A DNA stretch of 19,296 nt from Deltaproteobacteria bacterium (lineage in GTDB: Bacteria > Desulfobacterota > Syntrophia > Syntrophales > UBA2210). Position numbers and translations under genes: made by a program. Under the pieces are notes generated by a model. That model saw nothing but the letters and a program-made list of their open reading frames with translations, was not told the origin of the DNA and did not search any database. The stretch is from positions 1-19,296 of the forward strand of contig JAFGPZ010000256.1 in NCBI GenBank assembly GCA_016935935.1. The letters run 5' to 3'. Positions 746-17,534 of the stretch are shown here, one piece after another (positions within the stretch are counted from its first letter, which is position 1; each line of letters begins with the position of its first letter).

Positions 746-754
746 AACACACCT

Positions 755-1636
755 TTAATCCTGCGGTATCTCGTTTCTGAACATCAGGTAGTATGCCACG
801 CCGATGAAGAGAAAGCCGCCGAAGATATTCCCAATAGTAACGGGGATAATGTTCCAGAACCACACATCTGCCCAGCTGAGGCCGTTATTGCCTGCAAGCA
901 GGCCTCCTACCTTGCCTACCGTCGCCGGATACCAGTCGACGAGAAACTTTCCCGTGGGCAGGAAGTACATGTTCGCCACGCAATGCTCAAACCCTGTAGA
1001 CACGAAGGCCATGATGGGGAACCAGACGCCGAAGAACTTGCCAATCACGTTATCCGCCGAGATTGCCAGAAGGATCGCGATATTTACCAGGAAGTTACAT
1101 CCGATGGCCTTGATAAAGCACGACCAGAGACCGGCAGCACCGACGGCCTTGTAGGTAAGTATCTTTCCTACGGCAATATTGATAGCAGACATGCCGAAGG
1201 CATTGACGGCCATGGTTCCGTCCGCCTGCCCATCGACCAGTGGTCCCACGGCCATAATGTAAGCGTAAAAAAAGGAACCTACGATATTTCCGATATAAAC
1301 CCAGAACCAGTTTCTCCACACGGCGTTCCAGCTAATCTTCTTCATCATAGCTGCCAGTGGAACTAGCATACAGTCTCCTGTAAATAGTTCCATTCCCGTC
1401 AGGACGATCGCGATGAGGCCGACGGGGAATACGGCGCCCCCTATGAGTTTGGCCATTCCGGCTCCGAGATGGGGTGCTACACCGGTCACACATACGGTAC
1501 ACAATGCGCCTCCAATTGCGATATAGGCGCCTGCCATGAAACCTCTTATCAGTAATTGAAAGACCGAAAGCTTTGATTTATAGGTTCCTGCGTTAGATGC
1601 AAGACCAACTATCTTAGGTGGTGCGTTAAATGCCAT
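755..1636 (-). CDS. Formate/nitrite transporter family channel (FocA/FdhC-like)
   Basis: This 293-residue integral membrane protein belongs to the FNT family, which forms pentameric channels passing formate, nitrite or other small monovalent anions. Features seen are the first-half signature around GMELFTGDCML (residues 81-91, with the conserved Thr-loop region), a second half with CNFLVNIAILLA (180-191), and the pore motif GFEHCVANMYFLPTG with the conserved His218. Six hydrophobic segments are apparent and the length matches the family. AAGGAGGAAGAGG precedes the ATG. The gene lies 74 bases downstream of the formate dehydrogenase gene on the same strand, which makes formate the likely substrate and export the likely direction in a syntrophic setting. 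Nitrite or hydrosulfide relatives are possible but less supported. Confidence 0.93.
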   Translation of the reverse strand: MAFNAPPKIVGLASNAGTYKSKLSVFQLLIRGFMAGAYIAIGGALCTVCVTGVAPHLGAGMAKLIGGAVFPVGLIAIVLTGMELFTGDCMLVPLAAMMKKISWNAVWRNWFWVYIGNIVGSFFYAYIMAVGPLVDGQADGTMAVNAFGMSAINIAVGKILTYKAVGAAGLWSCFIKAIGCNFLVNIAILLAISADNVIGKFFGVWFPIMAFVSTGFEHCVANMYFLPTGKFLVDWYPATVGKVGGLLAGNNGLSWADVWFWNIIPVTIGNIFGGFLFIGVAYYLMFRNEIPQD

Positions 1637-1710
1637 ACCTCTTCCTCCTTCGCTTTATAATTTAGATTGTTGCCAAAACAACCTTAAAAAACACCTTATC
1701 TGTATTCACT

Positions 1711-4404
1711 TCACGCTGCCTCTATCTTTACCGCGCACACCTTATATTCAGGGATCTTACCAATGGGATCCATGGCGGGATTGGTAAGGCGATTGACTGC
1801 CGCTTCACTGAAATGGAAATTGGCAAAGATCGTTCCCACTGGAGAACGGTCTGTCACTTTCGCCCGTGCCGTCATGTGTCCTCTTCTGGTGGTTATGCAT
1901 GCAGGGTTCCCATCTTCGATGCCGTATTTCTGTGCATCTTCGGGGTTAATCTCTATCAGACTTTCGGGGCACCTTTCAGATGGACCTTTTGTGCGGCGGC
2001 TCATGGTGCCCGTATGATAGTGATATAGAACGCGTCCCGTATTCAGGATCAGAGGATACTCGCTGTCAGGCAGCTCTGCCGGCTCTATATATTCCACTGC
2101 GTGAAAGAGACCAAGCCCCCGGGAGAATTTGTCCTTATGGAGATATTTTGTCCCGGGATGATCAACGCTTGGGCAGGGCCACTGAATGCCTTCCTTCTCG
2201 ATTCGCTTGTAGGTAATGCCGGCGTAGCTGGGCGTTACCACATTTATTTCCTTCATGATATCTTCTACAGTGGAATAGTCCATTGTGTATCCCATGCGTG
2301 TGGAAAGATCGGCGATGATCTGCCAGTCCGGTTTTGCTTCACCGGGGGGATTAACAGCTTTCCTTATTCGCTGAACCCTCCGCTCCGTGTTCGTCAGTGT
2401 TCCGTCTTTTTCCGCGAAACACGCCGACGGGAGTACGACATCTGCAAGTTCAGCCGTTTCATTAAGAAAGATATCCTGTACCACCAGTATGTCAAGATTT
2501 TTCAATGACGCTTCCACATGAGACAAATCTGGATCACTCAGCATTGGATTTTCGCCCATAACATAGAGTCCCTTTATATTTCCCTTGTGGGCTTCCTCCA
2601 TAATTTCCAGAATGGTGAGTCCCGGTTTTGCCGGAAGGGAGATATTCCATGCCTTTTCAAAAGTTTCACGAGACTTTTCGTTGTTAACGGCTTGATAGGC
2701 TGGAAAAACATTTGGAAGGGCACCCATGTCACAGGCACCCTGTACGTTATTCTGGCCTCTCAGTGGGTTGACACCTCCCCCTTCGATGCCCACATTACCG
2801 CAGAGCATGGCAAGGTTGGCGCAGGACTTAACGTTATCCGTACCGGTAATGTGCTGAGTGATTCCCATTGCATATAGAATGGATGCCTTTTCAGCCGATG
2901 CATACAGCCTTGCCGCCTTTTTCAGGTCTTCGGCGGGTACGCCCGATATATTTTCCACGTATTCGGGGGTGTATTTTTTTACGACATCTCTCATGGTCTC
3001 GAAGTTTTCCGTTCGTTTTTCCACATAGTTCCTGTCATAGAGTTCTTCGCCAATGATGACATTCATTAACCCGTTTATGACGGCAACGTCGGTTCCCGGG
3101 TTCTGTCTGAGCCATATGTCAGCGTATTTCGTGAGGTCAATCTCACGGGGATCGATGACAATAAGTTTTGCCCCGTGTCGGCGGATGGCACGTTTTACCC
3201 TGCTCCCTATAACGGGATGGTTTTCCGTAGTATTGGTTCCCGTGGCCAGGATTACATTGGAAACATCTAACTCGCTGATTGAATTCGTCATTGCGCCACT
3301 TCCGAATGCAGCGGCCAGACCGGCCACCGTTACGGAGTGTCAGAGACGGGCGCAGTGATCGACATTATTCGTACCGATCACCGCTCGCATGAACTTCTGG
3401 AACAGATAGTTTTCCTCATTGGTGCAGCGAGCCGATGAAAGTCCCGCTAAGCTTTCTGCTCCATGCTTTTCCTTGATGGAGTTAAACTTTCGGATGATGA
3501 AATCGTAGGCCTCGTTCCAACTGGATGCTTCGAGTTTTCCTTCTTTCCTGATAAGGGGCGTTGTGAGACGATCCGGATGAGTGATAAAATCCATGCCGAA
3601 TCTCCCTTTGACACAGAGACTTCCATCGTTTGGTTGTCCGTATTCTCGATTACCGGTAACCTTAATGATCTTTCCATCGTGCACGTTGAGATCCAGTTGG
3701 CATCCTACGCCACAGTAAGTACATGTTGTCCGTACCTTTTCAATTTCCCAGGGGCGACCTTCAAATCTGGCCTGTTTAAAGGTGAGGGCGCCTACGGGGC
3801 ATACATCGACGCACTGTCCACAGAATACACACTCCGAGTCAATATAATCGGCATCGAATGCGGGGCCAACTTTTGCACGGGATCCTCTGCTGGAAAAGTC
3901 GAGGATTTCATTTACCTGAATCTCGTTGCATGCCCTTACACAGCGTCCGCAGAGTATGCACTTATTGAGATCTCTACTGATCATGGAGTTTGTATCTTCG
4001 ACTCTGTAACCCGGAGGATCGATATTAAACCTGGGCAATTCGATTTTCATATCATAGACCAGATCCTGCAGTTCACAGTTTCCGTTCTTTTCACAGGTAA
4101 GACAGTTATGATCTCCCGATGCCCACAGAAGTTCAACGATCATTTTTCTCGCATTAAGGACTCTTTCAGTGTTGGTTTTTACGACCATTCCGGGGCTTGC
4201 TGGCATACAGCAGGATGCCACCAGGCTTCTGGCATTTTCCACCTCGACAACGCACACACGACATGCACCCACATTCGTCGTTCCCTCATAGTAGCAGAGG
4301 GTTGGTATATGTATGCCATTTTCCCGAGCGACTTCCAGAATTGTCTGACCTGTTGTTGCCTCAAACTCCCTTCCATCGATATTTAACGCAATCTTGTTAC
4401 TCAT
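1711..4404 (-). CDS. fdhA: Selenocysteine formate dehydrogenase, catalytic alpha subunit
   Basis: The 897-residue molybdo- or tungstopterin enzyme interconverts formate and CO2 in the cytosol. The N-terminus is NuoG-like: a [2Fe-2S] domain (C37, C48, C51, C65/C66), a His-Cys cluster (H99, C101, C104, C110), two [4Fe-4S] ferredoxin motifs (C149-C159 and C192-C202), then the molybdopterin [4Fe-4S] site (C228, C231, C235, C264). Residue 355 is an in-frame TGA at 3340-3342 with the context HCARL-Sec-HSVTVAGL, typical of formate dehydrogenases, followed by a SECIS hairpin. The reading frame continues unbroken on both sides, so this is one gene, not two or a pseudogene. The start ATG has AGGAGC upstream. 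The true stop is also TGA (1711-1713), backed by an in-frame TAA at 1696-1698. The NuoE, HndB and NuoF-like genes upstream are its electron-transfer partners. Confidence 0.95.
3309..3342 (-). promoter_or_regulatory. Bacterial SECIS element with its UGA codon
   Basis: On the minus strand the UGA (3340-3342) is followed 18 bases later by the loop GGUCU (3317-3321). An 8-bp stem (3322-3329 with 3309-3316) carries it, with GGCC pairing directly flanking the loop and two G-U pairs lower down. The E. coli fdhF SECIS also presents GGUCU at the loop, about 19 bases after its UGA, so loop sequence and spacing both match the known SelB recognition site. The selA, selB and selC genes must be elsewhere in the genome. 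Confidence 0.88.
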
Positions 4405-4476
4405 TTCTTGCTCCTATATGAATTGTACATAAGATGAATGGTGAGTAAAATTTTGATGCACCATTTCCCGAGGTTT

Positions 4477-7400
4477 CTATATCTCGGCATCGCATCTCAG
4501 GCAGCGTGACGCCTCCTTAATAGCCTCATCTATGTTGAACCCCAGTTCAACTTCGTCAAAGTTTGTTTTTCTGACTGCGGCATCGAGTTCGGGCATGGCG
4601 GCCTGAGGCCTTTCCTCTGTGTCTTCGTCGATTTCAAAGGGTATATCTATTTTTTCCCCTTCAACTGCCTCCCAGTCCGGTTCATTGTTTCTATTGCGTA
4701 TCGTCCTGTCTATCTCCTCAGCCGCCTGGTGTCCCGCTGCAATTGCTCCGATAACGGTCCATGGACCCGTTACGGCATCACCGCCGGCAAATGCGGTTTC
4801 ATTAGTTGTCTGAGATTTGCTGTTTTCCACGATGTCTAAGCAGTCCCATTTATTGACAGCGATTCCGCTTTTATCTGGAATGAAAGACAGGTCGGGGGAC
4901 TGACCGATTGCGGCGATTACGGAGTTCACGCTAAGCGTAAAATCGGAACCTTCCACTGGAATGGGTCTCCTGCGTCCACTGCGATCGAAGTCCCCTGTCT
5001 TCATCCTCTGGCATGATATGCCCTGGACTCTGCCGTCTTTCCCAAGGATTTCGGTGGGGGCGACATAGTACTCAATCTTAATGCCTTCGTGTTCTGCCGC
5101 AACTATTTCCTCATCGGCAGCGGGCATGTCCTCACGGGTTCGCCGGTAAATAATTGTTACCTCTGCGCCCAGTCTCACAGCGCAGCGTGCAGCGTCGATT
5201 GCCGAGTTTCCTCCACCAATGACTGCAACTTTACTACCAAGTGATTTTTCACCATTCAGCCAGGCATCTTCATTGATGTTGAAATCCCTCAGAAATTCAA
5301 CACCTCCATAGACGCCGTGAAGTTCTTCCCCTGCTATGTTCATCTTTATACTCTTGTGTGCGCCGGGGGCAAGATAGATGTAATCGTAGTCTTTATCGAT
5401 CATTTCGAAGGAGATGTCGCGTCCGATCCGTGTATTGCAGACAATATCAACGCCGAGTTTCCGGATATCATCCACCTCCCCGGAGAGTATGTCCCTCGGA
5501 AGCCTGTATGAAGGAATACCGTAACGTGTCATGCCGCCCGGCTCTGGCAGCTCTTCGAAGATCGTTACTTCGTAACCGCGAATAGCCAGGTCTCTCGCGG
5601 CAGTGAGGCCTGCTGGGCCGGCTCCGACTACGGCGATCTTTTCCTTTCGCGTAACAGATACAGGTTCAACATCCGGTCGTTGCGCGTTGTCGGTTATGAA
5701 CCGTTTTATGAATTTAATGGCCAGCGATTCATCCAACGTTGATCTTCGACATTTCGATTGACATTGGTGGTCACACACCCTTCCACATATGGAAGGAAAG
5801 GGGTTTGTTCTGAGAAGTACCTTGTACGCTTCGTCAAATCGTTGCGCACGAACCAGGGCAAGATAGGACGGAACATCCATGCCGATGGGGCAGGCATTCT
5901 GACAGGGTGACTTGAAAAGATCGGCACAGACTCCGGCGGGGCAACGCTTTTCACGTATATGCGCTTCATATTCGTTTCTGAAATAACGGATTGTGCTCAG
6001 AACAGGATTTGGTGCTGTCTGGCCGAGCCCGCAGAGAGCCGAATCCTTGATGATATAGGCCATTTCCTCGAGAAGTTCTATATCTCCCTCCTTGCCTCGT
6101 CCCTGACAGATGTTGGTGAGTATTTCCAGCATCCTTTTTGTTCCTTCACGGCAGGGGGAACATTTTCCGCACGATTCATCCTGGCAGAAATCCATGAAGA
6201 AACGGGCCATATCGACAGGGCACATGTCTTCGTTCATGACGATCAGTCCACCCGATCCCATGATAGCGCCTAATTCAGCCACATGCTCGTAGTCTATCGG
6301 CGCGTTTAGATGTTGTACCGGAATCATTCCGCCCGAAGGGCCTCCAAGCTGGGCAGCCTTGAACTTTTTACCTTTTGGTATGCCTCCTCCAATATCATGC
6401 ACTATGGTCCCAAGCGAGGTGCCCATAGGAACTTCTACAAGCCCCACATTATTGACGTCACCGGTAAGGGCAAAGACTTTGGTGCCTTTACTCCTCTCGT
6501 TTCCAATGCTGGCAAACCATGAGCTTCCTTTGGCAATGATCTGTCCCACGTTGGCCAGAGTTTCGACGTTGTTCAATACACTCGGTTTTTGCCACAGTCC
6601 TGAAACGGCGGGAAAGGGCGGTCGGGAGCGTGGCGTGCCCCTGTTACCCTCGATTGATGTCATGAGAGCCGTTTCTTCACCGCAGACGAAGGCCCCTGCT
6701 CCCTGATAAACTTCCAAATCAAAATCAAACCCTGTATCGAGTATATTATCTCCCAGAAGTCCGTATTCTTTTGCCTGAGAGATGGCAATGTCCAGTCTGC
6801 GGAGGGCTAACGGGTATTCCGCCCTGCAGTATATATAACCCTTGTTTGCGCCGATTGCCTTTGCGGCGATTATCATTCCTTCAAGTACAGCGTGGGGATC
6901 TGCCTCGAGTACGCTTCTGTCCATAAATGCCCCTGGGTCACCCTCATCGGCATTACAGAGAACGTATTTAATATCTCCCTTAGACTGGGCGGCAAATTTC
7001 CATTTCAGCCCTGTCGGGAATCCTGCCCCGCCCCGGCCTCTAAGACCGGAATCGAGTACCTCTTGCACAATTTCTTCAGGACTCATTTCCGTCAAGGCCT
7101 TGGCCATTCCGGAATACCCGTCACGGGCAATATATTCATCTATTCTCTCTGGATCAATTAATCCTTTATTTCTGAGTACTCTCAGTTCCTGGTGTGCGAA
7201 GAAGGGAATGTCTCTCATTTCCGGAATTGTCTCTTCCGTGGAAGGTTCTTTATAGAGCAGTCTTTCTACCGGCCTTCCCTTGAGAAGATGTTCTTCGACA
7301 ATTTCGGGTACGTCTTCCGGTTGAACCAACATGTATATGACACCTTCGGGGTATACCACCATGATGGGTCCCATGGCACAAAACCCGTTACATCCGGTTT

Positions 7401-7533
7401 CAACAATTTTTATTTCATCGGAAAGTTTCTGTTTGTTGATCTCTGCAGCAAGAGCCTGTTTGACCTTTCCACTTCCTGTCGCGCGACAACCGGTACCTCC
7501 GCAGACCAATATATGAGACCGAAATACCTTCAT
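4477..7533 (-). CDS. Fused ferredoxin / NuoF / GltD-like flavoprotein subunit
   Basis: The 1018-residue protein has three modules. Residues 1-90 are a thioredoxin-like [2Fe-2S] domain (C11, C16, C48, C52). About 110-530 are NuoF-like, with the NADH/FMN motifs GRGGAGFPTGLKW (166-178) and CNADEGDPGAF (193-203) and the [4Fe-4S] ligands C455, C458, C461 and C501. About 531-1018 resemble GltD/NfnB: a Cys-rich iron-sulfur segment (C531, C536, C544, C548, C583, C587, C591, C595), the FAD motif GAGPAG (637-642), the nucleotide motif GGGNSA (773-778) followed by YRRTREDMPA, and a terminal CLRCD. I chose the ATG at 7531-7533 because GGAGGT lies 9 bases before it; an ATG seven codons earlier has no ribosome site. 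It lies between the HndB-like gene and fdhA, so it is inferred to carry electrons between formate dehydrogenase and NAD(H), with a second flavin site probably for NADP(H). Confidence 0.9.
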   Translation of the reverse strand: MKVFRSHILVCGGTGCRATGSGKVKQALAAEINKQKLSDEIKIVETGCNGFCAMGPIMVVYPEGVIYMLVQPEDVPEIVEEHLLKGRPVERLLYKEPSTEETIPEMRDIPFFAHQELRVLRNKGLIDPERIDEYIARDGYSGMAKALTEMSPEEIVQEVLDSGLRGRGGAGFPTGLKWKFAAQSKGDIKYVLCNADEGDPGAFMDRSVLEADPHAVLEGMIIAAKAIGANKGYIYCRAEYPLALRRLDIAISQAKEYGLLGDNILDTGFDFDLEVYQGAGAFVCGEETALMTSIEGNRGTPRSRPPFPAVSGLWQKPSVLNNVETLANVGQIIAKGSSWFASIGNERSKGTKVFALTGDVNNVGLVEVPMGTSLGTIVHDIGGGIPKGKKFKAAQLGGPSGGMIPVQHLNAPIDYEHVAELGAIMGSGGLIVMNEDMCPVDMARFFMDFCQDESCGKCSPCREGTKRMLEILTNICQGRGKEGDIELLEEMAYIIKDSALCGLGQTAPNPVLSTIRYFRNEYEAHIREKRCPAGVCADLFKSPCQNACPIGMDVPSYLALVRAQRFDEAYKVLLRTNPFPSICGRVCDHQCQSKCRRSTLDESLAIKFIKRFITDNAQRPDVEPVSVTRKEKIAVVGAGPAGLTAARDLAIRGYEVTIFEELPEPGGMTRYGIPSYRLPRDILSGEVDDIRKLGVDIVCNTRIGRDISFEMIDKDYDYIYLAPGAHKSIKMNIAGEELHGVYGGVEFLRDFNINEDAWLNGEKSLGSKVAVIGGGNSAIDAARCAVRLGAEVTIIYRRTREDMPAADEEIVAAEHEGIKIEYYVAPTEILGKDGRVQGISCQRMKTGDFDRSGRRRPIPVEGSDFTLSVNSVIAAIGQSPDLSFIPDKSGIAVNKWDCLDIVENSKSQTTNETAFAGGDAVTGPWTVIGAIAAGHQAAEEIDRTIRNRNNEPDWEAVEGEKIDIPFEIDEDTEERPQAAMPELDAAVRKTNFDEVELGFNIDEAIKEASRCLRCDAEI

Positions 7534-7585
7534 CGGATAGTAACCTCCTCGCATGTGTGTTTTGGTGTCATCTTCATATTAACCA

Positions 7586-7969
7586 CTAACCATTTTGTTC
7601 CTTTCCCTTGGCGAGAACGAAAGGGGTTTGTATTTCGCCTTCCAGAATGTGTCTCTTGAAGATCTGCCTCATTTTATTTGGAGTCATATGTTCATAAACT
7701 ATCGGATCTTTTTCAAGAATTTCAACGGTTATCTCAGGTTCCCTGCTGCATAGCCCCATACAGCCTGATGTAGTTACAATAACATCCGATACGTTTGACT
7801 CCTCTATTTCGGAAAGCAGGGTGTTCATCACCTCTCTCGCGCCGGCAGCTATACCGCATGTCCCCATGTGAACCGTTACCTTGACTCTGCGATCACCTTC
7901 CCTCAAGGCATTTTCCGCCTGCACTCGTTCCTTAATCCTTTTCAGATCTTCCACTTTTAATTTGGCCAT
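7586..7969 (-). CDS. HndB-like thioredoxin-fold [2Fe-2S] protein
   Basis: The 127-residue protein resembles HndB, a small subunit of NADP-reducing hydrogenases. The motifs are GTCGIAAGA, with C38, and TSGCMGLCSREP, with C70 and C74. A helical N-terminus with many charged residues (1-28) precedes the fold. Only three cysteines are visible; from memory this is usual in the HndB family, so I do not read it as a lost ligand, but the fourth ligand cannot be named from sequence. AAGGTG precedes the ATG. It begins 18 bases after the NuoE-like stop and ends 52 bases before the fused flavoprotein start. The order NuoE, HndB, NuoF, catalytic subunit is that of HndABCD hydrogenases, here with formate dehydrogenase in place of hydrogenase. 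Confidence 0.87.
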   Translation of the reverse strand: MAKLKVEDLKRIKERVQAENALREGDRRVKVTVHMGTCGIAAGAREVMNTLLSEIEESNVSDVIVTTSGCMGLCSREPEITVEILEKDPIVYEHMTPNKMRQIFKRHILEGEIQTPFVLAKGKEQNG

Positions 7970-7987
7970 TTTCGTTCACCTTCTTGA

Positions 7988-8482
7988 TTAATTGTACTCT
8001 TGTAATATGTCTTTAAGTTTGTCAGGTTTTACCCTTCCATGGACATCATCGTCAACGACGACGACCGGCCCCAGTCCGCATGCACCGAGACATCTTACCG
8101 TTTCGTAGGTAAACAACCTGTCGGGTGTTGTCTCTCCCTCTTTAATACCGAACATTTTTTCCACTTTTTCTGCTATCTTCTTTCCGCCCCGGACATAGCA
8201 TGCCGTCCCCAGGCATACCCTGACTACATGTTTTCCCCGAGGGTGCATTGTGAAGAAGGAATAGAATGTGACCACGCCATATACATGGCTGAAAGGAATA
8301 TTAAGTCCCCGCCCCACTCTCCTCTGAACAGGAGGTGGAAGAAACCCCAGCAGCTCCTGGGCCTCTTCTAAAAGAGGGATAAGTCCCCCGGGCCTGCCTT
8401 TGTGTTTTCTTATTATTTCATCCAGCCTGTCAATCTGTTCCGATGTAAATTCTTCCAAAAGCTCATTGTATTCGAGATCCAT
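7988..8482 (-). CDS. NuoE/HndA-like [2Fe-2S] subunit
   Basis: The 164-residue protein is the 24-kDa-type subunit found in complex I, HndA-type hydrogenases and NAD-linked formate dehydrogenases. An N-terminal helical part (about 10-60, with GGLIPLLEEAQELLG) is followed by a thioredoxin-like fold. The cluster ligands are C90 and C95 in VCLGTACYVRGG and C131 and C135 in TVRCLGACGLGP, the normal four-Cys set. I place the start at the ATG at 8480-8482, since GGAGGA lies 9 bases upstream; an upstream in-frame TTG at 8539 would overlap the previous gene and add 19 residues unlike the family. It is the first redox gene of the operon, 40 bases after the ATPase gene stop. Confidence 0.92.
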   Translation of the reverse strand: MDLEYNELLEEFTSEQIDRLDEIIRKHKGRPGGLIPLLEEAQELLGFLPPPVQRRVGRGLNIPFSHVYGVVTFYSFFTMHPRGKHVVRVCLGTACYVRGGKKIAEKVEKMFGIKEGETTPDRLFTYETVRCLGACGLGPVVVVDDDVHGRVKPDKLKDILQEYN

Positions 8483-8522
8483 TCCCTTATTCCTCCATAT
8501 AGAAGAATCTTTTGAAAGGAGA

Positions 8523-9071
8523 TTATTGTTCAACGGCAATCTCCTTCAGCTCTTCTTCGATAAATTCCTTTATGAAACGCAAGACTCGAGCATTGCTTAA
8601 GGAAACACCATCCAGTTCCTTCCTTATCTCTCTAGTGTCCAGCGTAAATGCCAGGCCGTCCTTTTCGTGGGTGTAAAGAAAATCTATATCGGGATTGCCG
8701 GCAACAAGGGCTGTTATTGTATCTGACATGCTTCCAAGTGGCTGGCGGTCTATATGGCTGTTCTTGAATACAGCCAGTACATGTGTGCCTTTTCCTTCTT
8801 CTGTTTTTAAAGAAAGACGCCCGCCGGCAGTCTGTGCGGCCTGATCAAACAGGGGGAGTCCCAATCCCACATTGCGGACCTTTTTTGTAGTGAAAAAAGG
8901 ATCGAGAACCTTGCTTGCCCTTGTTTGATTCATGCCTTCGCCATCGTCGGTAATCTCAACAGTCAGTCTATCGCCCAAGGTGTCTTCGTTGATGTAAATC
9001 TCTACCAGCGTCGCAGCGGCTCGTATGGAATTTTCCACTATATCAAGAATATGCATAGATAATTCCAGCAT
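8523..9071 (-). CDS. Histidine-kinase-type ATPase domain protein without phosphoacceptor
   Basis: The 182-residue protein has a GHKL ATPase domain at its start: N box HILDIVENSIRAAA (N14), G1 box DDGEGM (42-47), F box DPFFTTKK (58-64) and G2 box GLGLPL (69-74). There is no upstream dimerisation or His phosphoacceptor domain and no sensor or membrane segment, so it is not a complete sensor kinase. The C-terminal third (about 105-182) is unassigned and ends in an acidic helix. It starts 6 bases after the PHP gene stop and lies 40 bases before the NuoE-like gene. I infer a regulatory partner of the redox complex, possibly phosphorylating or binding ATP for the other small proteins of the cassette; no substrate can be named. 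Confidence 0.85.
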   Translation of the reverse strand: MLELSMHILDIVENSIRAAATLVEIYINEDTLGDRLTVEITDDGEGMNQTRASKVLDPFFTTKKVRNVGLGLPLFDQAAQTAGGRLSLKTEEGKGTHVLAVFKNSHIDRQPLGSMSDTITALVAGNPDIDFLYTHEKDGLAFTLDTREIRKELDGVSLSNARVLRFIKEFIEEELKEIAVEQ

Positions 9072-9077
9072 ATTTTA

Positions 9078-9797
9078 CTATCCGATGTATCTGCCACTCT
9101 CCCCCGACATGGCCAGTTTTAGCTCACTGATCGAGGGGGTTTCCATATAAATTGTGGTAACACCCCCGCCGATTTCGTCGATAAAATGAGCGTCCGACGA
9201 TGTGATAACGGGATAGCCGGATATTTCAATATTTTGTTTCCTGCCGGCAGTGGATATTTCAATTGCATCTAATCCCAGATCCGGTGGTATGAATCCCAGT
9301 TGCCCGATTATGCCGAAACTCTCACGGTCCACATGTGCTGCTATGGCAACACCATTGAGTTTATGGATTGACTCTACTATTTCTTGCAGCGAAAGATCTG
9401 TGGCTCCCAGCAGCAGCCTGTCATTAAACCCTTCTACCTCGTTCATCTCATTCACTATCGGCTGGCATCCGAAAATCTCTTCCCTGTTTGTTCCTTTCAA
9501 GGAGCGGTAGACGATATGCTGGATATTTTTCAAAGTCTTCGTGCTTTCAAAAAGCGCCAGGATATGGACTTCTTCCCTGCTCGTTATTTCCATTCCCGGA
9601 AATACAAAGACTGGTTTATCGGCTGCAGCAAGCAATACATATTCTACGTTTTCAGAAGCATTGTGATCGCAGACAGCTATGACATCCAGTTTTTCCAAAA
9701 CAGCCTTATCGACCAAAGCTGAAGGGGACATATCAAGATCTGCGCAGGGAGACAGGCATGTATGAATGTGAAGGTCACACCTGTATCCTCTTAACAT
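9078..9797 (-). CDS. PHP-domain putative metal-dependent phosphoesterase
   Basis: The 239-residue protein is a PHP-family phosphoesterase. Metal-binding motifs in order are DLHIHTCLSPC (D8, H10, H12), DHNAS (D44, H45), GMEITSREEVHIL (E70, H78), AAHVDR and SSDAH. Together they supply the usual His/Asp/Glu set for a two- or three-metal site. The family includes the phosphatase YciV/Rnm and histidinol phosphatases; the substrate here is unknown. I use the ATG at 9795-9797, which puts the first metal motif near the N-terminus as in relatives, with GGGG about 9 bases upstream. A TTG at 9819-9821 would add eight residues and has no better ribosome site. It lies 32 bases after a DRTGG gene and 6 before the ATPase gene. 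Confidence 0.88.
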   Translation of the reverse strand: MLRGYRCDLHIHTCLSPCADLDMSPSALVDKAVLEKLDVIAVCDHNASENVEYVLLAAADKPVFVFPGMEITSREEVHILALFESTKTLKNIQHIVYRSLKGTNREEIFGCQPIVNEMNEVEGFNDRLLLGATDLSLQEIVESIHKLNGVAIAAHVDRESFGIIGQLGFIPPDLGLDAIEISTAGRKQNIEISGYPVITSSDAHFIDEIGGGVTTIYMETPSISELKLAMSGESGRYIG

Positions 9798-9829
9798 CTT
9801 CCCCTGACCCCGGAACGACAATAGGTACT

Positions 9830-10177
9830 TTAGAGATAAATTACCCTTTTCATAAGTTCGTATACTTTACCCGCCACTTCGAAGCAGGGAAGCGCTGATG
9901 AAAGGATGGGAATCCCAGCCTTTTCCGCCTTTTTGACAGTCTCTTTATCTGGTTCCCTGTTCAGAACAAGTATAATCCCAGAGTGCTCCTTAAGCTCTGC
10001 TACTGCTACAATGTTCTGATGCGATTGGATGGTGATCCACACATTGCCCTTTTCACTGTTTGCGATGACATCACTTAAGAGATCGCCGACGTATCCGCCT
10101 GTAACACTACTGTCTAGTTTTTCCTCGCAGCATCTGACGGTGAGGTTCAAGGATTCAACTAATGACATAAGTTTCAT
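9830..10177 (-). CDS. DRTGG-domain small protein, TGG motif kept
   Basis: The 115-residue protein is a stand-alone DRTGG domain, a fold also found in the N-terminal region of some phosphotransacetylases and next to CBS domains, where a regulatory role is suspected. The characteristic segment is VTGGYVGDLLSDVIAN (about 25-40), followed by a strand-helix pattern ending in AEKAGIPILSS. Its ATG overlaps the stop of the RsbT-like gene (ATGA), a sign of coupled translation. It is a paralogue of the DRTGG protein at 10634-10993: both begin MKL, share LVE, LLSDV/LMSDV and IPI(L/V)S, and end with FE..G(K/R)(V/L)Y. Two cysteines (RCC, about 15-17) are unusual for a cytosolic regulator, and a redox role is possible but unproven. 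Confidence 0.82.
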   Translation of the reverse strand: MKLMSLVESLNLTVRCCEEKLDSSVTGGYVGDLLSDVIANSEKGNVWITIQSHQNIVAVAELKEHSGIILVLNREPDKETVKKAEKAGIPILSSALPCFEVAGKVYELMKRVIYL

Positions 10178-10626
10178 GGCTTATTTCCTTGCTCAGCTTT
10201 GGTGTCAATTGATATTTTAAGGTGAGCTCCAATATTCGGCGATGAAGTAATTTTAAAAAAATCGGAACACCGTTTTATATTGGAAAGACCCATGCCGGCG
10301 CCAAAACCCATATTCCTGATGAGATCAGTTGCTGTAGAATATCCATCCCTCATTGCGAGCTCAATATCATCAATGCCGGGCCCTTCGTCTTCCGCGTCGA
10401 TTTCTATCTTGTTTGGATCAATACGGAGTGTTATATGCCCAAATCTTGCGTAGGATATAATGTTCAGTTCCGACTCATACGTCGCAATTGCCGCTCTTCT
10501 CTGTATCTCTCCGGGGTATCCCATATCTTTGATGATACTCTTTACACGAAGAGAAACAACCCCGGCTTTATCGAAGTTTCCCCCCTCTATAGGGAAGCTA
10601 TTTTTATACCGTGACGTAGAAATCAA
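10174..10626 (-). CDS. RsbT/RsbW-like ATP-binding regulatory kinase
   Basis: The 150-residue protein is a GHKL-type ATPase like the anti-sigma or switch kinases RsbW and RsbT. Motifs are the N-box TYESELNIISYA (49-60, with N55), G1 box DEGPGI (80-85) and G2 box GFGAGMGLSN (107-116). The start is TTG at 10624-10626; no ATG is in frame before the conserved FPIEGGNFDKAG segment, and GGAG lies 12 bases upstream. It is flanked on both sides by DRTGG genes: 7 bases after one, with a 4-base overlap with the other. No sigma factor or STAS antagonist gene is present, so a partner-switch on sigma is not supported; the DRTGG proteins are the more likely partners (inference). Confidence 0.85.
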   Translation of the reverse strand: MISTSRYKNSFPIEGGNFDKAGVVSLRVKSIIKDMGYPGEIQRRAAIATYESELNIISYARFGHITLRIDPNKIEIDAEDEGPGIDDIELAMRDGYSTATDLIRNMGFGAGMGLSNIKRCSDFFKITSSPNIGAHLKISIDTKAEQGNKP

Positions 10627-10633
10627 CTATCTG

Positions 10634-10993
10634 TCATTCTCCAATTTTTTGGACACATCCGACCATGCCGTTCACATACAGCCTTCCTGATGTTTCAAAA
10701 AGAATGTATTTTGTAGAAACAATCGGTATGTTCAGTTTTTTGGCCAGTTCCACCGTTTCTGCTGGTGGTATTTTGCCTCTTACTATTACAATGGCCGACG
10801 AATCCAGAATGCTTGCCGTTCTCACAACCTGTGGATTTGTAAGGCCGGTAAGAAGAAGACTGTTAGGTTTGGCGAATGCCAATACATCACTCATAAGATC
10901 GGCGCTGAAAGCAGTTTTTACCTCCAGATCTAGATGGTTGTCTCCTGTGAGGACTGTACCATCAAGAATCTCTACTAACTTGGACAGCTTCAA
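10634..10993 (-). CDS. DRTGG-domain small protein, divergent motif; first gene of fdh operon
   Basis: The 119-residue protein is a second DRTGG-fold protein, with VKTAFSADLMSDVLAFA (about 25-41) where the motif is expected. The TGG triplet is replaced by AFS, so it may have lost a ligand contact kept by its paralogue at 9830-10177. The C-terminal half (SAIVIVRGKIPPAETVELAKKLNIPIVST) follows the family pattern. The start is TTG at 10991-10993 with AAGGT 6 bases upstream. It is the first gene of the leftward run, about 43 bases from a TATAAT-like hexamer, so its promoter probably drives the whole formate dehydrogenase operon. Function is unknown beyond presumed ligand sensing. Confidence 0.8.
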   Translation of the reverse strand: MKLSKLVEILDGTVLTGDNHLDLEVKTAFSADLMSDVLAFAKPNSLLLTGLTNPQVVRTASILDSSAIVIVRGKIPPAETVELAKKLNIPIVSTKYILFETSGRLYVNGMVGCVQKIGE

Positions 10994-11035
10994 TTCGTTA
11001 CCTTATTTAAAATTCTCTAACTGAATTGATACTAC

Positions 11036-11041
11036 ATTATA
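11036..11041 (-). promoter_or_regulatory. Candidate -10 hexamer of the leftward fdh operon
   Basis: TATAAT is present on the minus strand 43 bases before the TTG start of the first DRTGG gene. No good -35 hexamer lies 16-18 bases upstream (GATAGG is at 17), so the promoter would need an activator or another sigma factor. A TTGACA at 11081-11086 (minus) has a weak extended -10 (TGTGATAGG) 16 bases on and is an alternative. An inverted repeat, TGACA-8-TGTCA, occupies 11068-11085. Confidence 0.4.
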
Positions 11042-11122
11042 GGCAGTAACAATTAGCACCTATCACATGACATTTGGTTCTGTCAATTATTATTTTATGT
11101 ATAAAAATTTTCTATTTTTTCC

Positions 11123-11151
11123 TTGACAGAGCTGCGAGCCTCATCTATAAA
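11123..11151 (+). promoter_or_regulatory. Near-consensus sigma70 promoter of the fad operon
   Basis: TTGACA at 11123-11128 and TATAAA at 11146-11151 are separated by exactly 17 bases: a perfect -35 and a 5/6 -10. It lies 67 bases before the GTG start of the TetR gene. Transcription would begin near 11158, so the palindrome at 11167-11181 would sit just downstream of the start site, a position suited to repression. Confidence 0.75.
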
Positions 11152-11166
11152 GGGATTATGACTATA

Positions 11167-11181
11167 GGTCAGAAACTGACC
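11167..11181. promoter_or_regulatory. Perfect palindrome, candidate TetR-family operator
   Basis: GGTCAG-AAA-CTGACC is a perfect inverted repeat with 6-base arms and a 3-base centre. It lies 15 bases after the -10 hexamer and 37 bases before the regulator's start. TetR-family repressors bind short palindromes of this kind and usually regulate their own genes, so autoregulation is likely. It does not resemble the B. subtilis FadR operator (TGAATGA..TCATTCA). Confidence 0.6.
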
Positions 11182-11218
11182 ACCATTCATTTTTTGTTGA
11201 CATTCAAAAGGGCAAACA

Positions 11219-11860
11219 GTGGACACTGAGAAAAGAAGGAAAAAAGAGAGGGGCCAGAGAAAAAACAACATATTGAAAGTTGCCCGGAAGTTGTTTCTTC
11301 AAAAGCGTTTCAATGACGTCACGGTTTCACAGATTGCCCAAAAGGCTGCCTTGAGCAAAGGCGCCATATATCTTTATTTCAGAAGCAAAGAGGAACTATA
11401 TACTCAAATACTCTTGGATGATATCGAAAAATTCCACGACAGGGTCGCTAATATTTTCATGGAGGAAAGGTCCGCATCCGTCATTATTACTGATTTTGCC
11501 GATTTCTACACAAATTTTTTCCTGGCCGAGAGAGAATTGTTCAGAATATTGATAAATTTCATGGTTAATATGAATAACGTTAATTTCACTGGGGAAATGA
11601 ATGAGAAGGTTATTCGTGAGACAAATAAGACTGTTTCACTTATCGAGGGAATATTACAGTACGGTGTCCAGCAGGGAGAGTTCAAACTGGAAAACGAAGA
11701 GATCAGACCAGCAAGGAATGCCTTTTGGGGACTGTTGAATGGAATAATATCCCTCCATCTCTTCGTCGGCAATGAGGCAAAAAGGGAGGAGAGGATACGG
11801 ATTAACATTAAAAAAGGTTTAGACATTTTTATCGGGGGGCTGAAGGGCCTGAACCATTGA
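11219..11860 (+). CDS. TetR-family transcriptional regulator of beta-oxidation genes
   Basis: The 213-residue regulator has an N-terminal helix-turn-helix: ILKVARKLFLQKRF, then VTVSQIAQKAALSKGAIYLYF (about 34-54), typical of TetR family DNA-binding domains. The C-terminal all-helical part would bind a ligand, plausibly an acyl-CoA. The start is GTG at 11219, with AAAAGGG 6 bases upstream; the N-terminus is very basic. The stop is followed by AGGAGG and the acyl-CoA dehydrogenase ATG only 13 bases later, so the regulator is the first gene of the fad operon. By analogy with FadR (YsiA) of B. subtilis, which controls fad genes and is released by long-chain acyl-CoA, it is probably a repressor of this operon. 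The ligand is inferred, not seen. Confidence 0.9.
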   Translation: MDTEKRRKKERGQRKNNILKVARKLFLQKRFNDVTVSQIAQKAALSKGAIYLYFRSKEELYTQILLDDIEKFHDRVANIFMEERSASVIITDFADFYTNFFLAERELFRILINFMVNMNNVNFTGEMNEKVIRETNKTVSLIEGILQYGVQQGEFKLENEEIRPARNAFWGLLNGIISLHLFVGNEAKREERIRINIKKGLDIFIGGLKGLNH

Positions 11861-11873
11861 AGGAGGTAAATCT

Positions 11874-13739
11874 ATGGGTAATCTTTTGGTAAACACGAGG
11901 GATCAAAAATTTATTCTCTATGAGCAGATTGGTATTGAAAAACTTTTCCAGTTTCAGCGTTACGAAGACTACTCCAGTGAAGTTGTAGATATGCTGTTGA
12001 GCGAGGCGGAAAAGATGGCGGTAGAAGACATTCTTCCCACCTATGAAGCTGGCGATAAAGAGGGGTGTTCTTTCAAGGATGGTAAGGTTTCTGCCCCCAA
12101 ATCGTACCATGCTCCCTACAAGAAATTTTGCGAAGCGGGGTGGATAAGCGCACCACAGGATCCTGAAATAGGCGGCCAGAACATGCCTATCGTAGTATGG
12201 ACGGCCTGCGCGGAATTGTTCAACGCGGCAAATTTCGCCCTCATGATGTATCCTGGGCTTACATGGGGGGCGGCTGGTCTTATTAAGAAGTATGGCACTG
12301 AAGACCAAAAAAAAAGATATATGCACAAGATGTTTTCCGGTGAATGGGGAGGCACCATGTGCCTCACCGAACCCAATGCAGGAAGCGACGTGGGGGCAAC
12401 GAAAGCTACGGCCCGAAGGCTGCCTGACGGGCGATTCAGTATAACGGGAACTAAGATGTTTATCTCTTCTGGCGACCATGATCTGACAGAAAATATCGTT
12501 CATTCCGTCCTTGCCAGGATCGAGGGAGACCCTCCTGGAACCGGAGGTATTTCAATTTTTATCGTTCCAAAATACAGGGTCAATGATGACGGAACTTTGG
12601 GAGAATTCAACGATGTCGTAACAGGAAATATCGAGCATAAAATGGGTATCAAGGGATCCGCTACGTGCACTCTAAATTTTGGTGAAGATGGAGATTGTAT
12701 CGGAGAAGTCCTTGGGGAAGAGCGAAAGGGGATGAGGGTAATGTTCCAGATGATGAACGAAGCCCGACTGGAAGTGGGTATGCAGGGGTTGGGACATTCC
12801 ACTGCTGCTTATGAGCATGCACTGCAGTACGCGAAAGAGCGCGTACAAAGCAGGCCGATATGGGAAATGACCAATCCCAGTGCTGCGCCAGTTCCGATTA
12901 TTCAGCACCCTGATGTCAGACGTATGCTCCTATGGATGAAATCTTACGTGGAGGGCATCAGGGCGATGAACTATTTTGTTGCCTTTGCCATAGACATGGC
13001 AAATATTGCTGAAACGGAAGAAGAGAAGAGTAAGTGGAGCGGATTCGTAGAGTTGCTCACACCGGTCTGCAAGGCTTTTTCATCGGATATGGCCGTTGAG
13101 ATATGTTCTCTCGGAATAGATGTATACGGCGGCTATGGATACATTTCGGAGTATCCCATGGAACAGTACATGAGGGACGCAAAGATTGCATGCCTCTACG
13201 AGGGGACTAACGGTATTCAGGCTTTGGACCTTGTAGGCAGAAAACTGGCTCAGAAAAAGGGGATGAATGCTATGAACCTCTTTAGCGCCATGGGCGACAC
13301 GTGCCAGAAGGTGAAAAAGATCGATGCACTGAAAGCGGCAGCGGCAAGTCTTGAGGATGCCTATGCCTCTGTTGCTGCTCTGACTATGCAATTCGGCCAG
13401 TGGGCCAAAAGCTCCAGTATGATTATGCCCATCTTGAATGCAAGACCCTATCTCATGATCATGGGCGATCTCGTCGTGGGGTGGAAGCTGTTGGAGGGAG
13501 CAGGGATAGCTTACGAAAAGCTCCAGTCAATTTATGAAAAGGCCGGCGCCGATGAAACTAAGGCCCGTCGGAGGGCGGAAGATCGAAAAAATCCTGAAGC
13601 CGCATTCTATCAGGGGAAAATTGCTGTGGCCAAGTATTTTATGGCAAATATAGTTCCCACGATCAAGGCCCGATGTGGGGCCATACAATCTGGGGACAGA
13701 ACTCCAATCGAGATGCTGGAAGAATCTTTCGGGTTTTAA
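11874..13739 (+). CDS. fadE: Long-form acyl-CoA dehydrogenase
   Basis: The 621-residue FAD enzyme oxidises acyl-CoA to trans-2-enoyl-CoA, the first step of beta-oxidation, normally passing electrons to ETF. Motifs are CLTEPNAGSDVGATKATA (163-180), the ITGTKMFISSGDHDL flavin region (190-204), EARLEVGMQGLG (296-307) and LYEGTNGIQALDLVGRKL (441-458), where E443 is the expected catalytic base. The chain is about 220 residues longer than short-chain acyl-CoA dehydrogenases. The extra part is mainly C-terminal (about 470-621), as in the FadE group of about 600 residues with an added C-terminal domain. AGGAGG lies 7 bases before the ATG. Chain-length preference cannot be read from sequence, and no etfA or etfB gene is in the window. 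Confidence 0.95.
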   Translation: MGNLLVNTRDQKFILYEQIGIEKLFQFQRYEDYSSEVVDMLLSEAEKMAVEDILPTYEAGDKEGCSFKDGKVSAPKSYHAPYKKFCEAGWISAPQDPEIGGQNMPIVVWTACAELFNAANFALMMYPGLTWGAAGLIKKYGTEDQKKRYMHKMFSGEWGGTMCLTEPNAGSDVGATKATARRLPDGRFSITGTKMFISSGDHDLTENIVHSVLARIEGDPPGTGGISIFIVPKYRVNDDGTLGEFNDVVTGNIEHKMGIKGSATCTLNFGEDGDCIGEVLGEERKGMRVMFQMMNEARLEVGMQGLGHSTAAYEHALQYAKERVQSRPIWEMTNPSAAPVPIIQHPDVRRMLLWMKSYVEGIRAMNYFVAFAIDMANIAETEEEKSKWSGFVELLTPVCKAFSSDMAVEICSLGIDVYGGYGYISEYPMEQYMRDAKIACLYEGTNGIQALDLVGRKLAQKKGMNAMNLFSAMGDTCQKVKKIDALKAAAASLEDAYASVAALTMQFGQWAKSSSMIMPILNARPYLMIMGDLVVGWKLLEGAGIAYEKLQSIYEKAGADETKARRRAEDRKNPEAAFYQGKIAVAKYFMANIVPTIKARCGAIQSGDRTPIEMLEESFGF

Positions 13740-13766
13740 AAGACTTCCACTTGTACTATGATAAGA

Positions 13767-13798
13767 GAATAAGCTTGGAAAATTCAAGCGGATTATTC
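13767..13798 (+). other. Bulged hairpin between fadE and fadN
   Basis: In the 124-base gap, GAATAAGCTTG (13767-13777) pairs with CAAGC (13785-13789) and TTATTC (13793-13798), leaving a 7-base loop and a 3-base bulge (GGA). No T-run follows, so it is not an intrinsic terminator. It may affect mRNA processing or stability, or be chance. No convincing promoter is visible in this gap. Confidence 0.35.
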
Positions 13799-13863
13799 GA
13801 GAAAAGGGTGAGCATACGAGCACTTCTTTACAGATAACGTAACGCCTATAAGGAGGGTATGAC

Positions 13864-16281: not shown

Positions 16282-16346
16282 AATAGATTGACTCGGTGCT
16301 GTAATTGGAACAACCGAGCCGTTACGAAAAACAAGGAGGAAACGCG

Positions 16347-17534
16347 ATGCGAGATACCGTGATCATTGAATCCGTGAGGAGTCCTGGAGGGCGTTATAAG
16401 AGAGGGGGGCTTGCCAATACAAGGGCCGATGAGATAGGAATTCAGGTAGTGAAGGGATTGATGGAGAGAGTTCCGAAACTGAAACCTGCAGATGTGGATG
16501 ATCTTATATGCGGGTGCGCCTTTCCCGAGGCGGAGACCGGGATGAACGTGGGCAGGGTTGTGGCGTTGGGTGCAGGTCTGCCTATTACCACGTCAGGGAT
16601 AACGATCAACCGTTTCTGTTCTTCAGGTCTTCAGGCAATTGCCCATGCCACCGCAAGTATAGCAGTGGGTTGGGCCGATGTGGTTATAGCGGGAGGCACG
16701 GAATCTATGACCCATATACCGATGGGCGGAGGCATATTCAGGCCTCACCCGGAATGGGGGGATCTGCCGAATACCTATGTCTCAATGGGTGTGACTGCCG
16801 AGAATGTTGCTGCTAATTATAAGGTGTCCCGGGAAGATCAGGACAAATTCGGGATGGAGAGCAACAGAAGGGCCCATGAAGCAATAAAGACGGGGAAATT
16901 CAAGAAAGAGATCATTCCGATCAATGCCGTAAGATACACGCTGGATAAGCACGGCAGGAAGGTTAAAGAAAGAATAATATTTGATATGGATGATGGTGTC
17001 AGATGGCCTACCACGCTGGAGGCCATGGGGAAGCTTAAGTCACCCTTCAAGGACGGAGGCTCCGTTACGGCTGCAAATTCATCGCAGATGACTGACGGCG
17101 CTGCATTTACTCTGGTAATGGCGGCGGAAAAGGCGAAGGAACTGGGGCTGAAACCCGTTGCCCGCTTGACGCACTTTGCGGTTGCCGGTTGCAAGCCGGA
17201 AGAAATGGGGGTAGGGCCCGCTGTGGCGATTCCAAAAGCCTTAAAGATGGCGGGCTTGAAAAGCAAAGATATAGACCTTTTCGAGATAAATGAGGCCTTC
17301 GCCGCCCAGGCCCTATATTGTATACGAGAGCTTGGCCTCGAAAAGAGGCTGGAAGCAGGCGATATCAACCCAAACGGAGGCGCCATTGCGCTTGGTCATC
17401 CTCTTGGTTGTACCGGCGCCAAGCTGACAGCACAGCTTATTCACGAATTGAAGAAGAGAAAGTCGAAGAGGGGAATTGTCTCCATGTGCATCGGAGGCGG
17501 GATGGGTGCTGCGGGAATCTTTGAGATGATGTAG
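16347..17534 (+). CDS. fadA: Acetyl-CoA C-acyltransferase (3-ketoacyl-CoA thiolase)
   Basis: The 395-residue thiolase cleaves 3-ketoacyl-CoA with CoA to give acetyl-CoA and a shortened acyl-CoA. Catalytic residues are C91 (NRFCSSGLQA), H351 (GHPLGCTG) and C381 (VSMCIGGGMG), nearly the same positions as in the Zoogloea thiolase (89, 348, 378). NEAFAAQ is also present. I chose the ATG at 16347 because AAGGAGG lies 7 bases upstream and the chain then begins MRDTVIIESVRSP as in relatives; a TTG at 16305 would add 14 unrelated residues. The gene follows fadN by 65 bases and ends just before a strong terminator. An acetyl-CoA acetyltransferase acting on acetoacetyl-CoA is the main alternative; context favours beta-oxidation. 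Confidence 0.94.
   Translation: MRDTVIIESVRSPGGRYKRGGLANTRADEIGIQVVKGLMERVPKLKPADVDDLICGCAFPEAETGMNVGRVVALGAGLPITTSGITINRFCSSGLQAIAHATASIAVGWADVVIAGGTESMTHIPMGGGIFRPHPEWGDLPNTYVSMGVTAENVAANYKVSREDQDKFGMESNRRAHEAIKTGKFKKEIIPINAVRYTLDKHGRKVKERIIFDMDDGVRWPTTLEAMGKLKSPFKDGGSVTAANSSQMTDGAAFTLVMAAEKAKELGLKPVARLTHFAVAGCKPEEMGVGPAVAIPKALKMAGLKSKDIDLFEINEAFAAQALYCIRELGLEKRLEAGDINPNGGAIALGHPLGCTGAKLTAQLIHELKKRKSKRGIVSMCIGGGMGAAGIFEMM

Follow-up and report, generated by a model that had tools for sequence, protein, structure and literature searches.

A DRTGG, PHP and GHKL ATPase gene cassette beside the NADH head of several redox complexes, and its possible role as an ATP-dependent switch

The stretch of DNA described here (the window) comprises 19,296 nucleotides of contig JAFGPZ010000256.1, assembly GCA_016935935.1, from a Deltaproteobacteria bacterium. 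It carries a cassette of five minus-strand genes, which encode, in order, a first DRTGG protein (DRTGG1), an RsbT-like ATPase, a second DRTGG protein (DRTGG2), a PHP protein and a GHKL ATPase. The cassette stands at the head of an operon for a formate dehydrogenase (Table 1). Its closest matches in the genome collection come from Syntrophaceae and other Deltaproteobacteria assemblies.

The five genes had been noticed by a model working from the sequence alone (the original prediction), and open reading frames and Pfam matches agree with its placing of them. The coordinates confirm the spacing it gave: 7 bases between the DRTGG1 and RsbT-like genes, a 4-base overlap of the latter with DRTGG2, then 32 bases before PHP and 6 before GHKL. 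The ATG of nuoE, at 8482, lies 40 bases past GHKL, and the cassette runs unbroken into nuoE, TRX2, the nuoF-gltD fusion, fdhA and a transporter gene. As the prediction also held, no response regulator, sigma factor or STAS protein is present among the ten operon proteins scanned; the same ten give no Pfam match to a HisKA/DHp phosphoacceptor domain and include no PP2C phosphatase. Terminator-like patterns in 500-11300 are no commoner than in shuffled sequence (9 against a mean of 9.6), and Rfam gives no match at gathering score. The DRTGG2 score is marginally below the PF07085 gathering cut-off of 25.2. The PHP frame is given from an ATG start; a TTG at 9821 is also open.

Table 1. Cassette and operon genes of the window.
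Feature	Position	Strand	Support
DRTGG1: stand-alone DRTGG-domain protein, 119 amino acids, DLMSDV motif	10634..10993	-	Pfam DRTGG (PF07085) 39.7 bits
RsbT/SpoIIAB-like GHKL kinase-type ATPase, 150 amino acids	10174..10626	-	Pfam HATPase_c
DRTGG2: second stand-alone DRTGG-like protein, 115 amino acids, motifs GGYxxDLLSDV and WxTxQxHxN	9830..10177	-	Pfam DRTGG (PF07085) 25.0 bits
PHP-family metallophosphoesterase-like protein (predicted)	9078..9797	-	Pfam PHP and PHP_C
GHKL ATPase, MutL/GyrB type, 182 amino acids, without HisKA phosphoacceptor domain	8523..9071	-	Pfam HATPase_c; fold model
NuoE/HydC-like [2Fe-2S] thioredoxin-like subunit	7988..8482	-	
TRX2: short thioredoxin-like [2Fe-2S] companion protein; adjoins the cassette in many relatives	7586..7969	-	Pfam 23.3 bits (cut-off 24.8)
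HydB-type NuoF (N-terminal thioredoxin-like domain) fused to GltD-like NAD(P)-binding flavoprotein, 1025 amino acids	4477..7554	-	
FdhA: NuoG/HydA-type N-terminal iron-sulfur domains and formate dehydrogenase catalytic domain	1711..4404	-	
Formate/nitrite transporter (PF01226), downstream of fdhA	755..1636	-	

Related cassettes can be found in many genomes. A profile of the PHP protein, applied at E values up to 1e-20, matches 66 of 297 genomes of one phylum (that of genome G001), 65 of them at 4.1e-71 or better; the match to the remaining genome, G047, is broken into two pieces. The match is single in 13 of 13 genomes, and in 64 of the 66. The profile also matches 6 of 247 genomes in a second phylum; one of these matches is to part of a 936-amino-acid frame that probably belongs to another PHP family. 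Profiles of the other genes were built from 80 related loci, and the surroundings of PHP were then annotated. Most of the genomes are metagenome assemblies, so that absences are uncertain.

The gene set was counted at those 58 of 67 places where the sequence extends 2.9 kb or more upstream of PHP and 0.7 kb or more downstream; nine were dropped because a flank was too short. DRTGG1 lies near PHP in 50 of these places, the RsbT-like gene in 52, DRTGG2 in 52 and GHKL in 50, and all five genes occur together in 45. The five-gene set of the original prediction stands to this extent, but a sixth gene, often present in relatives, had been missed. This gene, HydS, encodes Fer4, [FeFe] hydrogenase H-domain and FeS parts. 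Records of Parabacteroides and Subdoligranulum, and many genomes, have it between the RsbT-like gene and DRTGG2; it is near PHP in 20 of the 58 places. HydS is not among the 17 window proteins scanned, and the RsbT-like and DRTGG2 genes of the window overlap.

Partner genes were counted at the 47 of 67 places with 5 kb on either side (38 of 80 for the 80-locus set, for which further counts rest on 41, 58, 64, 65, 73 or 75 loci depending on the question). Within 10 kb on the same strand, NuoF is present in 37 of the 47 and NuoE also in 37. In 30 of the 66 PHP genomes, 137 NuoF-type matches fall in about 111 Mb, or about 1.2 per Mb, and the chance expectation for a 20-kb neighbourhood is about 2.5%. 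Chance adjacency is rejected on this comparison and because the gene set is conserved across genomes. The neighbourhood survey that had been set as a test thus finds co-occurrence beyond chance.

A clear formate dehydrogenase is found in 12 of the 47 places, and a HydA with an H-cluster motif in 6. The formate dehydrogenase counts use a stricter score, looser classes having included proteins near NuoG; the protein of about 850 amino acids at locus L133, like those at L132, L134 and L144, is indistinguishable from NuoG. The motif is demanded of HydA because a score-only profile also caught molybdopterin NuoG-like proteins, for example at L014 (the L167 locus). Five of the 67 places and two of the 80 loci carry a protein labelled HydA by score that is without the motif. 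At L054 and L158, HydA exceeds the NCBIfam cut-off for NADH-dependent [FeFe] hydrogenase, group A6.

The link to HndABCD-type [FeFe] hydrogenases that the original prediction had mentioned is thus borne out, since cassettes adjoin NuoE, NuoF and group A HydA. The catalytic subunit downstream in the window is a formate dehydrogenase, not a group A [FeFe] hydrogenase. A cassette specific to [FeFe] hydrogenases is rejected, being contradicted by the window, by the formate dehydrogenase-linked cases and by those linked to complex I; nor is the predicted tie to hydrogenases and formate dehydrogenases exclusive, for the cassette also occurs in complex I operons. An N-terminal thioredoxin-like cysteine motif is present in 81 of 88 cassette-linked NuoF frames; among the seven exceptions, four appear to be broken or masked and three retain this stretch but not its cysteines. 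Going by gene neighbourhoods, the common partner across these settings is the NADH head formed by NuoE, TRX2 and HydB-type NuoF.

Two further surroundings were read by eye. At L003 (8126-17557) the cassette and NuoE-TRX2-NuoF have no adjoining catalytic subunit, and the next genes resemble those for methylenetetrahydrofolate reductase and methyltransferases. At L152 (7521-8321) a PHP gene of the cassette family has no other cassette gene in the stretch examined, and its neighbours resemble electron-transfer flavoprotein genes.

Cassette genes lie inside or directly against a complex I (nuo) operon in 16 of the 67 places, two of which (L139 and L142) were assigned from fewer annotations than the others. 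At L140 the order reads DRTGG1, CBS-RsbT, nuoA, nuoC, nuoD, DRTGG2, PHP, GHKL, nuoE, TRX2, nuoF, nuoG, nuoH, nuoI. In L145 and L149, nuoD and nuoE enclose RsbT, DRTGG2, PHP and GHKL, and no DRTGG1 was seen in the sequence examined; like L140, both loci carry the NuoG of complex I. At L225, in genome G135, DRTGG2 and GHKL lie between nuoD and nuoE, and DRTGG1, RsbT and PHP follow nuoN (NuoD, NuoH and NuoN were checked). Next in line after this nuoN-DRTGG1-RsbT-PHP arrangement come sulfhydrogenase-type [NiFe] hydrogenase genes (L146, 8272-12189). An extra thioredoxin-like gene is present between nuoE and nuoF in L225, L140, L145 and L149.

In another arrangement (L135, L137, L150, L153 and L154), nuoL, nuoM and nuoN are followed by a complete HydS-type cassette that leads into NuoE, TRX2 and NuoF. 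In all but L135, where the stretch ends in nuoF, the next gene encodes a formate dehydrogenase that, as in the window, contains selenocysteine. Partial cassettes occur in nuo settings at L138, L139, L141, L142, L143, L147 and L151. Genome G135 has a second cluster (L201) with RsbT, HydS, DRTGG2 and GHKL and neither PHP nor DRTGG1. Since nearly all genomes have one PHP match, a single PHP may serve both clusters there. L201 also encodes, at 1794-3833, a further protein resembling [FeFe] hydrogenases, which is joined to HisKA and HATPase_c domains.

These settings bear on how far the cassette acts. It could sense H2, redox state or nucleotides and signal to a transcription factor encoded elsewhere, leaving the redox complex untouched. 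Group C and D HydS proteins are termed putative sensors in the parts of PMC8163306 and PMC3561251 seen, which also give kinase-like neighbours and an AraC regulator at the Thermoanaerobacter mathranii locus, and sensory hydrogenases have been proposed in print to signal to transcription. However, the ten operon proteins scanned include no response regulator, sigma factor or STAS protein. Local action is also the better fit to cassette genes within nuo operons, where GHKL immediately precedes nuoE in L140, L145, L149 and L225. Purely transcriptional control is therefore judged unlikely. The best reading is the one already put forward in the original prediction, of a device acting on the redox complex or on its synthesis.

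Fusions join members of the cassette to one another and to further domains, which points to physical or functional contact among them. A pair of CBS domains is fused to RsbT in 14 open reading frames (11 distinct), HydS to DRTGG1 in five (three distinct), HydS to DRTGG2 in three and DRTGG1 to RsbT in two (L063 and L165). One example of each kind was checked with Pfam. The fusion alignment (A5) is a small set chosen by trial with MAFFT. An AlphaFold model of the L063 fusion, with a predicted local distance difference test (pLDDT) score of 88.6 and a predicted template modelling (pTM) score of 0.76, splits into a SpoIIAB-like and a DRTGG part.

Conserved residues and predicted folds suggest what the proteins may do. 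In the RsbT-like ATPase the N-box residues Glu51 and Asn55 are conserved at 0.99. Its score against TIGR01925, 40.6 bits, is below the model's cut-off of 135; the fold of its relative at L063 is nearest SpoIIAB. Judged from conserved residues, the ATP sites of both ATPases are intact. The serine of the DLxSDV motif, Ser35 in the window, is kept in 0.98 of 134 DRTGG1 relatives and in 1.00 of 133 DRTGG2 relatives; four generic DRTGG domains carry His, Gly, Gln or Ala at this position in a short and unsure alignment. In the PHP protein H18, H20, D52, H53, E78, H86, H163, D210 and H212 (numbered from the TTG start) are conserved at 1.00 in 138 sequences, and these residues are presumably ligands of a metal site. 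By sequence, the PHP protein comes closest to the named families TrlF, Ppl, CehA/McbA and RNase RNM. Kinship with the anti-phage protein Ppl was considered and rejected, the match being weak (27.3 bits in PADLOC; 48.5 against a cut-off of 1000 in NCBIfam).

The GHKL ATPase had been predicted as a second ATPase lacking a phosphoacceptor. The lack of a HisKA match holds, but the protein is not simply a histidine kinase short of one domain. Sequence searches rank histidine kinases, but the closest solved folds to its AlphaFold model (pLDDT 90) are MutL and GyrB, over residues 1-166 and among the families listed; the fold is preferred, and a truncated histidine kinase is rejected.

This fold also fits a maturation or repair module that involves no signalling. 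GHKL would then act as a clamp or chaperone that depends on ATP, a cofactor or nucleotide would be held by TRX2 and the DRTGG proteins, and PHP would hydrolyse a nucleotide by-product, so that the flavin and iron-sulfur NADH head is assembled or mended. TrlF, RNase RNM and nucleoside bisphosphate phosphatase models are among those nearest to PHP in sequence, and the module accompanies the NADH head whether the setting is a hydrogenase, a formate dehydrogenase or complex I. The intact N-box of an RsbT/SpoIIAB-type kinase, the CBS-pair fusions and the putatively sensory HydS are, however, traits of signalling, and both canonical NuoEF and several of the HydABC enzymes are assembled in the absence of the cassette. 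Such a module is considered rather improbable.

The gene set and its order, the fusions, the conserved residues, the predicted folds and the link to the NADH head lead us to propose a partner switch instead. That the five genes are the core of a conserved ATP-dependent switch serving the NADH head (NuoE, TRX2 and HydB-type NuoF) of several redox complexes has roughly an even chance of being right. In this proposal the RsbT-like protein would be a SpoIIAB-type kinase, with the DRTGG proteins as its partners in place of STAS proteins. It would phosphorylate DRTGG1, or grip it in an ATP-dependent manner, with Ser35 at a helix start as the candidate site, and perhaps DRTGG2 as well. Resetting the switch would fall to PHP, as the phosphatase. 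Its state would be relayed to the NADH head by DRTGG2 and the MutL-type GHKL, whose genes are next to or near nuoE, and these would so set the activity or assembly of the head. The reactions of kinase and phosphatase are inferred, as are the phosphosite, a direct contact with NuoE/NuoF and the direction of control.

Elsewhere the input could come from the iron-sulfur/H-cluster protein HydS, sometimes fused to DRTGG, or from the CBS pair fused to the RsbT-like protein. The window would represent a HydS-less form of the switch, attached to a selenocysteine, NAD-linked formate dehydrogenase, in which the input would have to be either the nucleotide state as such or a factor whose gene lies elsewhere.

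Several observations weigh against the switch. One or more of the five genes are missing nearby in 13 of the 58 places, and neither NuoE/NuoF nor a known catalytic subunit is present within 10 kb on the strand in 8 of the 47. The conserved serine may have a structural part, as a cap at the start of its helix. Nucleotides and RNA are also among the substrates of PHP proteins, so that the cassette member may not be a protein phosphatase.

HydS can be compared with known sensory hydrogenases. An alignment of 12 HydS proteins has invariant cysteines, among them C389-x2-C392-x4-C397-x16-C414 (the C-terminal Cx2Cx4Cx16C); four cysteines shared by the 12 are taken as putative H-cluster ligands. None of the 12 has a Cys directly before the first CP motif. 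Pfam finds Fer4, Fe_hyd_lg_C and FeS in six HydS proteins and no PAS match, which fits group D (M2e). The relatives' HydS has the layout of that group, with two Fer4 motifs, the H-domain, the C-terminal motif and no PAS, as set against published features rather than the TamHydS sequence. Such cysteine features mark groups C and D in the portions of PMC8163306 and PMC10407848 consulted.

HydS was searched at E values up to 1e-100, with five candidates scored per genome. It is found in 32 of the 297 genomes, 31 of which also carry the cassette PHP (Fisher p 1.6e-22); the other, G272, is interrupted by a contig end. At the same threshold it is not found in 35 of the 66 PHP genomes. A quick PHP tree (LG+G4) puts the window in a starred group of eight rows, seven of them HydS-less and one unknown, and presence and absence of HydS on the tree require at least nine changes. 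That HydS is merely encoded elsewhere in HydS-less genomes is rejected, as none was found in the eight searched in full; six of these matched solely in the ferredoxin part. HydG was not found in these genomes either, at least in those six. Against this, in the larger sample HydS and PHP lie on different contigs in G033, G071, G150, G244, G070, G106, G135 and G188; arrangements in trans or contig breaks do occur.

Maturases of the H-cluster are often missing where HydS is present. HydG is above cut-off in 7 of the 32 HydS genomes and not found in 25. HydF is above cut-off in 4, and in a fifth (G106) it is in two pieces, one just below; because other GTPases crowded the HydF search, the count is confined to rows that reach or nearly reach the cut-off. 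HydG occurs in 7 of the 9 HydS genomes with a further [FeFe]-hydrogenase-type match, against 0 of the 23 others (p 1e-5). The remaining two of the 9, G070 and G214, show that assembly gaps occur, but gaps hardly explain 23 genomes without HydG. Most HydS proteins of the 32 genomes retain the cluster cysteine motifs. In maturase-free genomes HydS is probably without the two-iron subsite, and it may read redox state rather than H2. Retention of HydS without detectable maturases puts the H2-sensor reading in doubt for those organisms.

The formate dehydrogenase of the window has one in-frame TGA (3340-3342) in the context HCARL-U-HSVTVAGL, read as selenocysteine. The context HCARL-stop-HSVTVAGL is also present in L137, L150, L153 and L154. 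The NuoF-GltD fusion may provide a second NAD(P) site in the complex.

Divergent from the cassette is an operon (11219-17534) of TetR, acyl-CoA dehydrogenase, 3-hydroxyacyl-CoA dehydrogenase/enoyl-CoA hydratase and thiolase genes. The TetR gene at its head (11219-11860) encodes the sole transcription factor among the 17 window proteins scanned. These neighbours suggest that the host is a fatty-acid-oxidising anaerobe, and because beta-oxidation genes diverge from the cassette, the likely task of the enzyme is the disposal, as formate, of NADH from fatty-acid oxidation. If the proposed switch is real, it would decide in syntrophic fatty-acid oxidisers when NADH electrons leave as formate, and in nuo operons the kit would be a dedicated ATP-driven control module for some respiratory complex I enzymes.

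A wider claim can be made only tentatively, and is on balance somewhat doubtful. It holds that the NADH head common to bifurcating hydrogenases, NAD-linked formate dehydrogenases and some complex I enzymes has a regulator not recognised before, which is a partner switch built on DRTGG instead of STAS proteins; that PAS-less group D HydS signals through fused or neighbouring DRTGG; and that HydS is an unmatured iron-sulfur redox sensor in most Desulfobacterota carrying it.

The neighbourhood of sensory hydrogenases is already known. A 2012 meta-analysis (PMC3561251) and Land and colleagues (PMC8163306) place group D (M2e) hydrogenases near kinases, upstream of bifurcating hydrogenases, and regard them as putative sensors, as in TamHydS of T. 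mathranii; in the accessible text of PMC8163306, how a PAS-less sensory hydrogenase passes its signal on is raised as a question. HydS-DRTGG fusions and recurrent DRTGG, RsbT, PHP and GHKL neighbours are concrete candidate partners for this signalling. Group D loci and cassette relatives share kinase-like ATPase genes before a bifurcating hydrogenase and a HydS with Fer4, Fe_hyd_lg_C and FeS in which no PAS is found. The window differs in being without HydS and in serving a formate dehydrogenase. DRTGG, PHP and MutL-type ATPase partners, fusions and embedding in complex I are not named for those loci in the parts of the papers available.

A putative operon of the sensory type is listed gene by gene in PMC4237134 (Halanaerobium hydrogeniformans Halsa_1862-1871). 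As far as its accessible part goes, it shares in kind the genes for PHP, a histidine kinase, an anti-sigma/serine kinase, NuoE, a ferredoxin-like protein, NADH dehydrogenase and hydrogenase, but it is hydrogenase-linked, has further iron-sulfur genes and is given as a gene list only. No description of the cassette as one unit was found in the open-licence literature, as far as its text was available (subscription papers lie outside this scope). The parts seen of PMC3561251, PMC8163306 and PMC4237134 neither group DRTGG, PHP and GHKL into one module nor report the fusions, the lack of maturases, or forms of the cassette that are HydS-less, linked to a formate dehydrogenase or embedded in complex I.

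Among individual proteins, the partner-switching kinases SpoIIAB, RsbW and RsbT (PDB 1til, 1l0o, 6m36) share fold and N-box with the RsbT-like ATPase, but in the operon DRTGG and PHP proteins stand where a STAS antagonist, sigma factor and PP2C would be. CBS and DRTGG domains are known in combination; the fold and joint use are shared, but in the cassette family the DRTGG domain either stands alone or is joined to HydS or RsbT, and it is RsbT to which CBS is joined. MutL/GyrB-type ATPases are closest in fold to the GHKL model, but the cassette protein, of 182 amino acids only, has no DNA repair or topoisomerase domains and carries an HxDRxPxG motif common to the cassette family.

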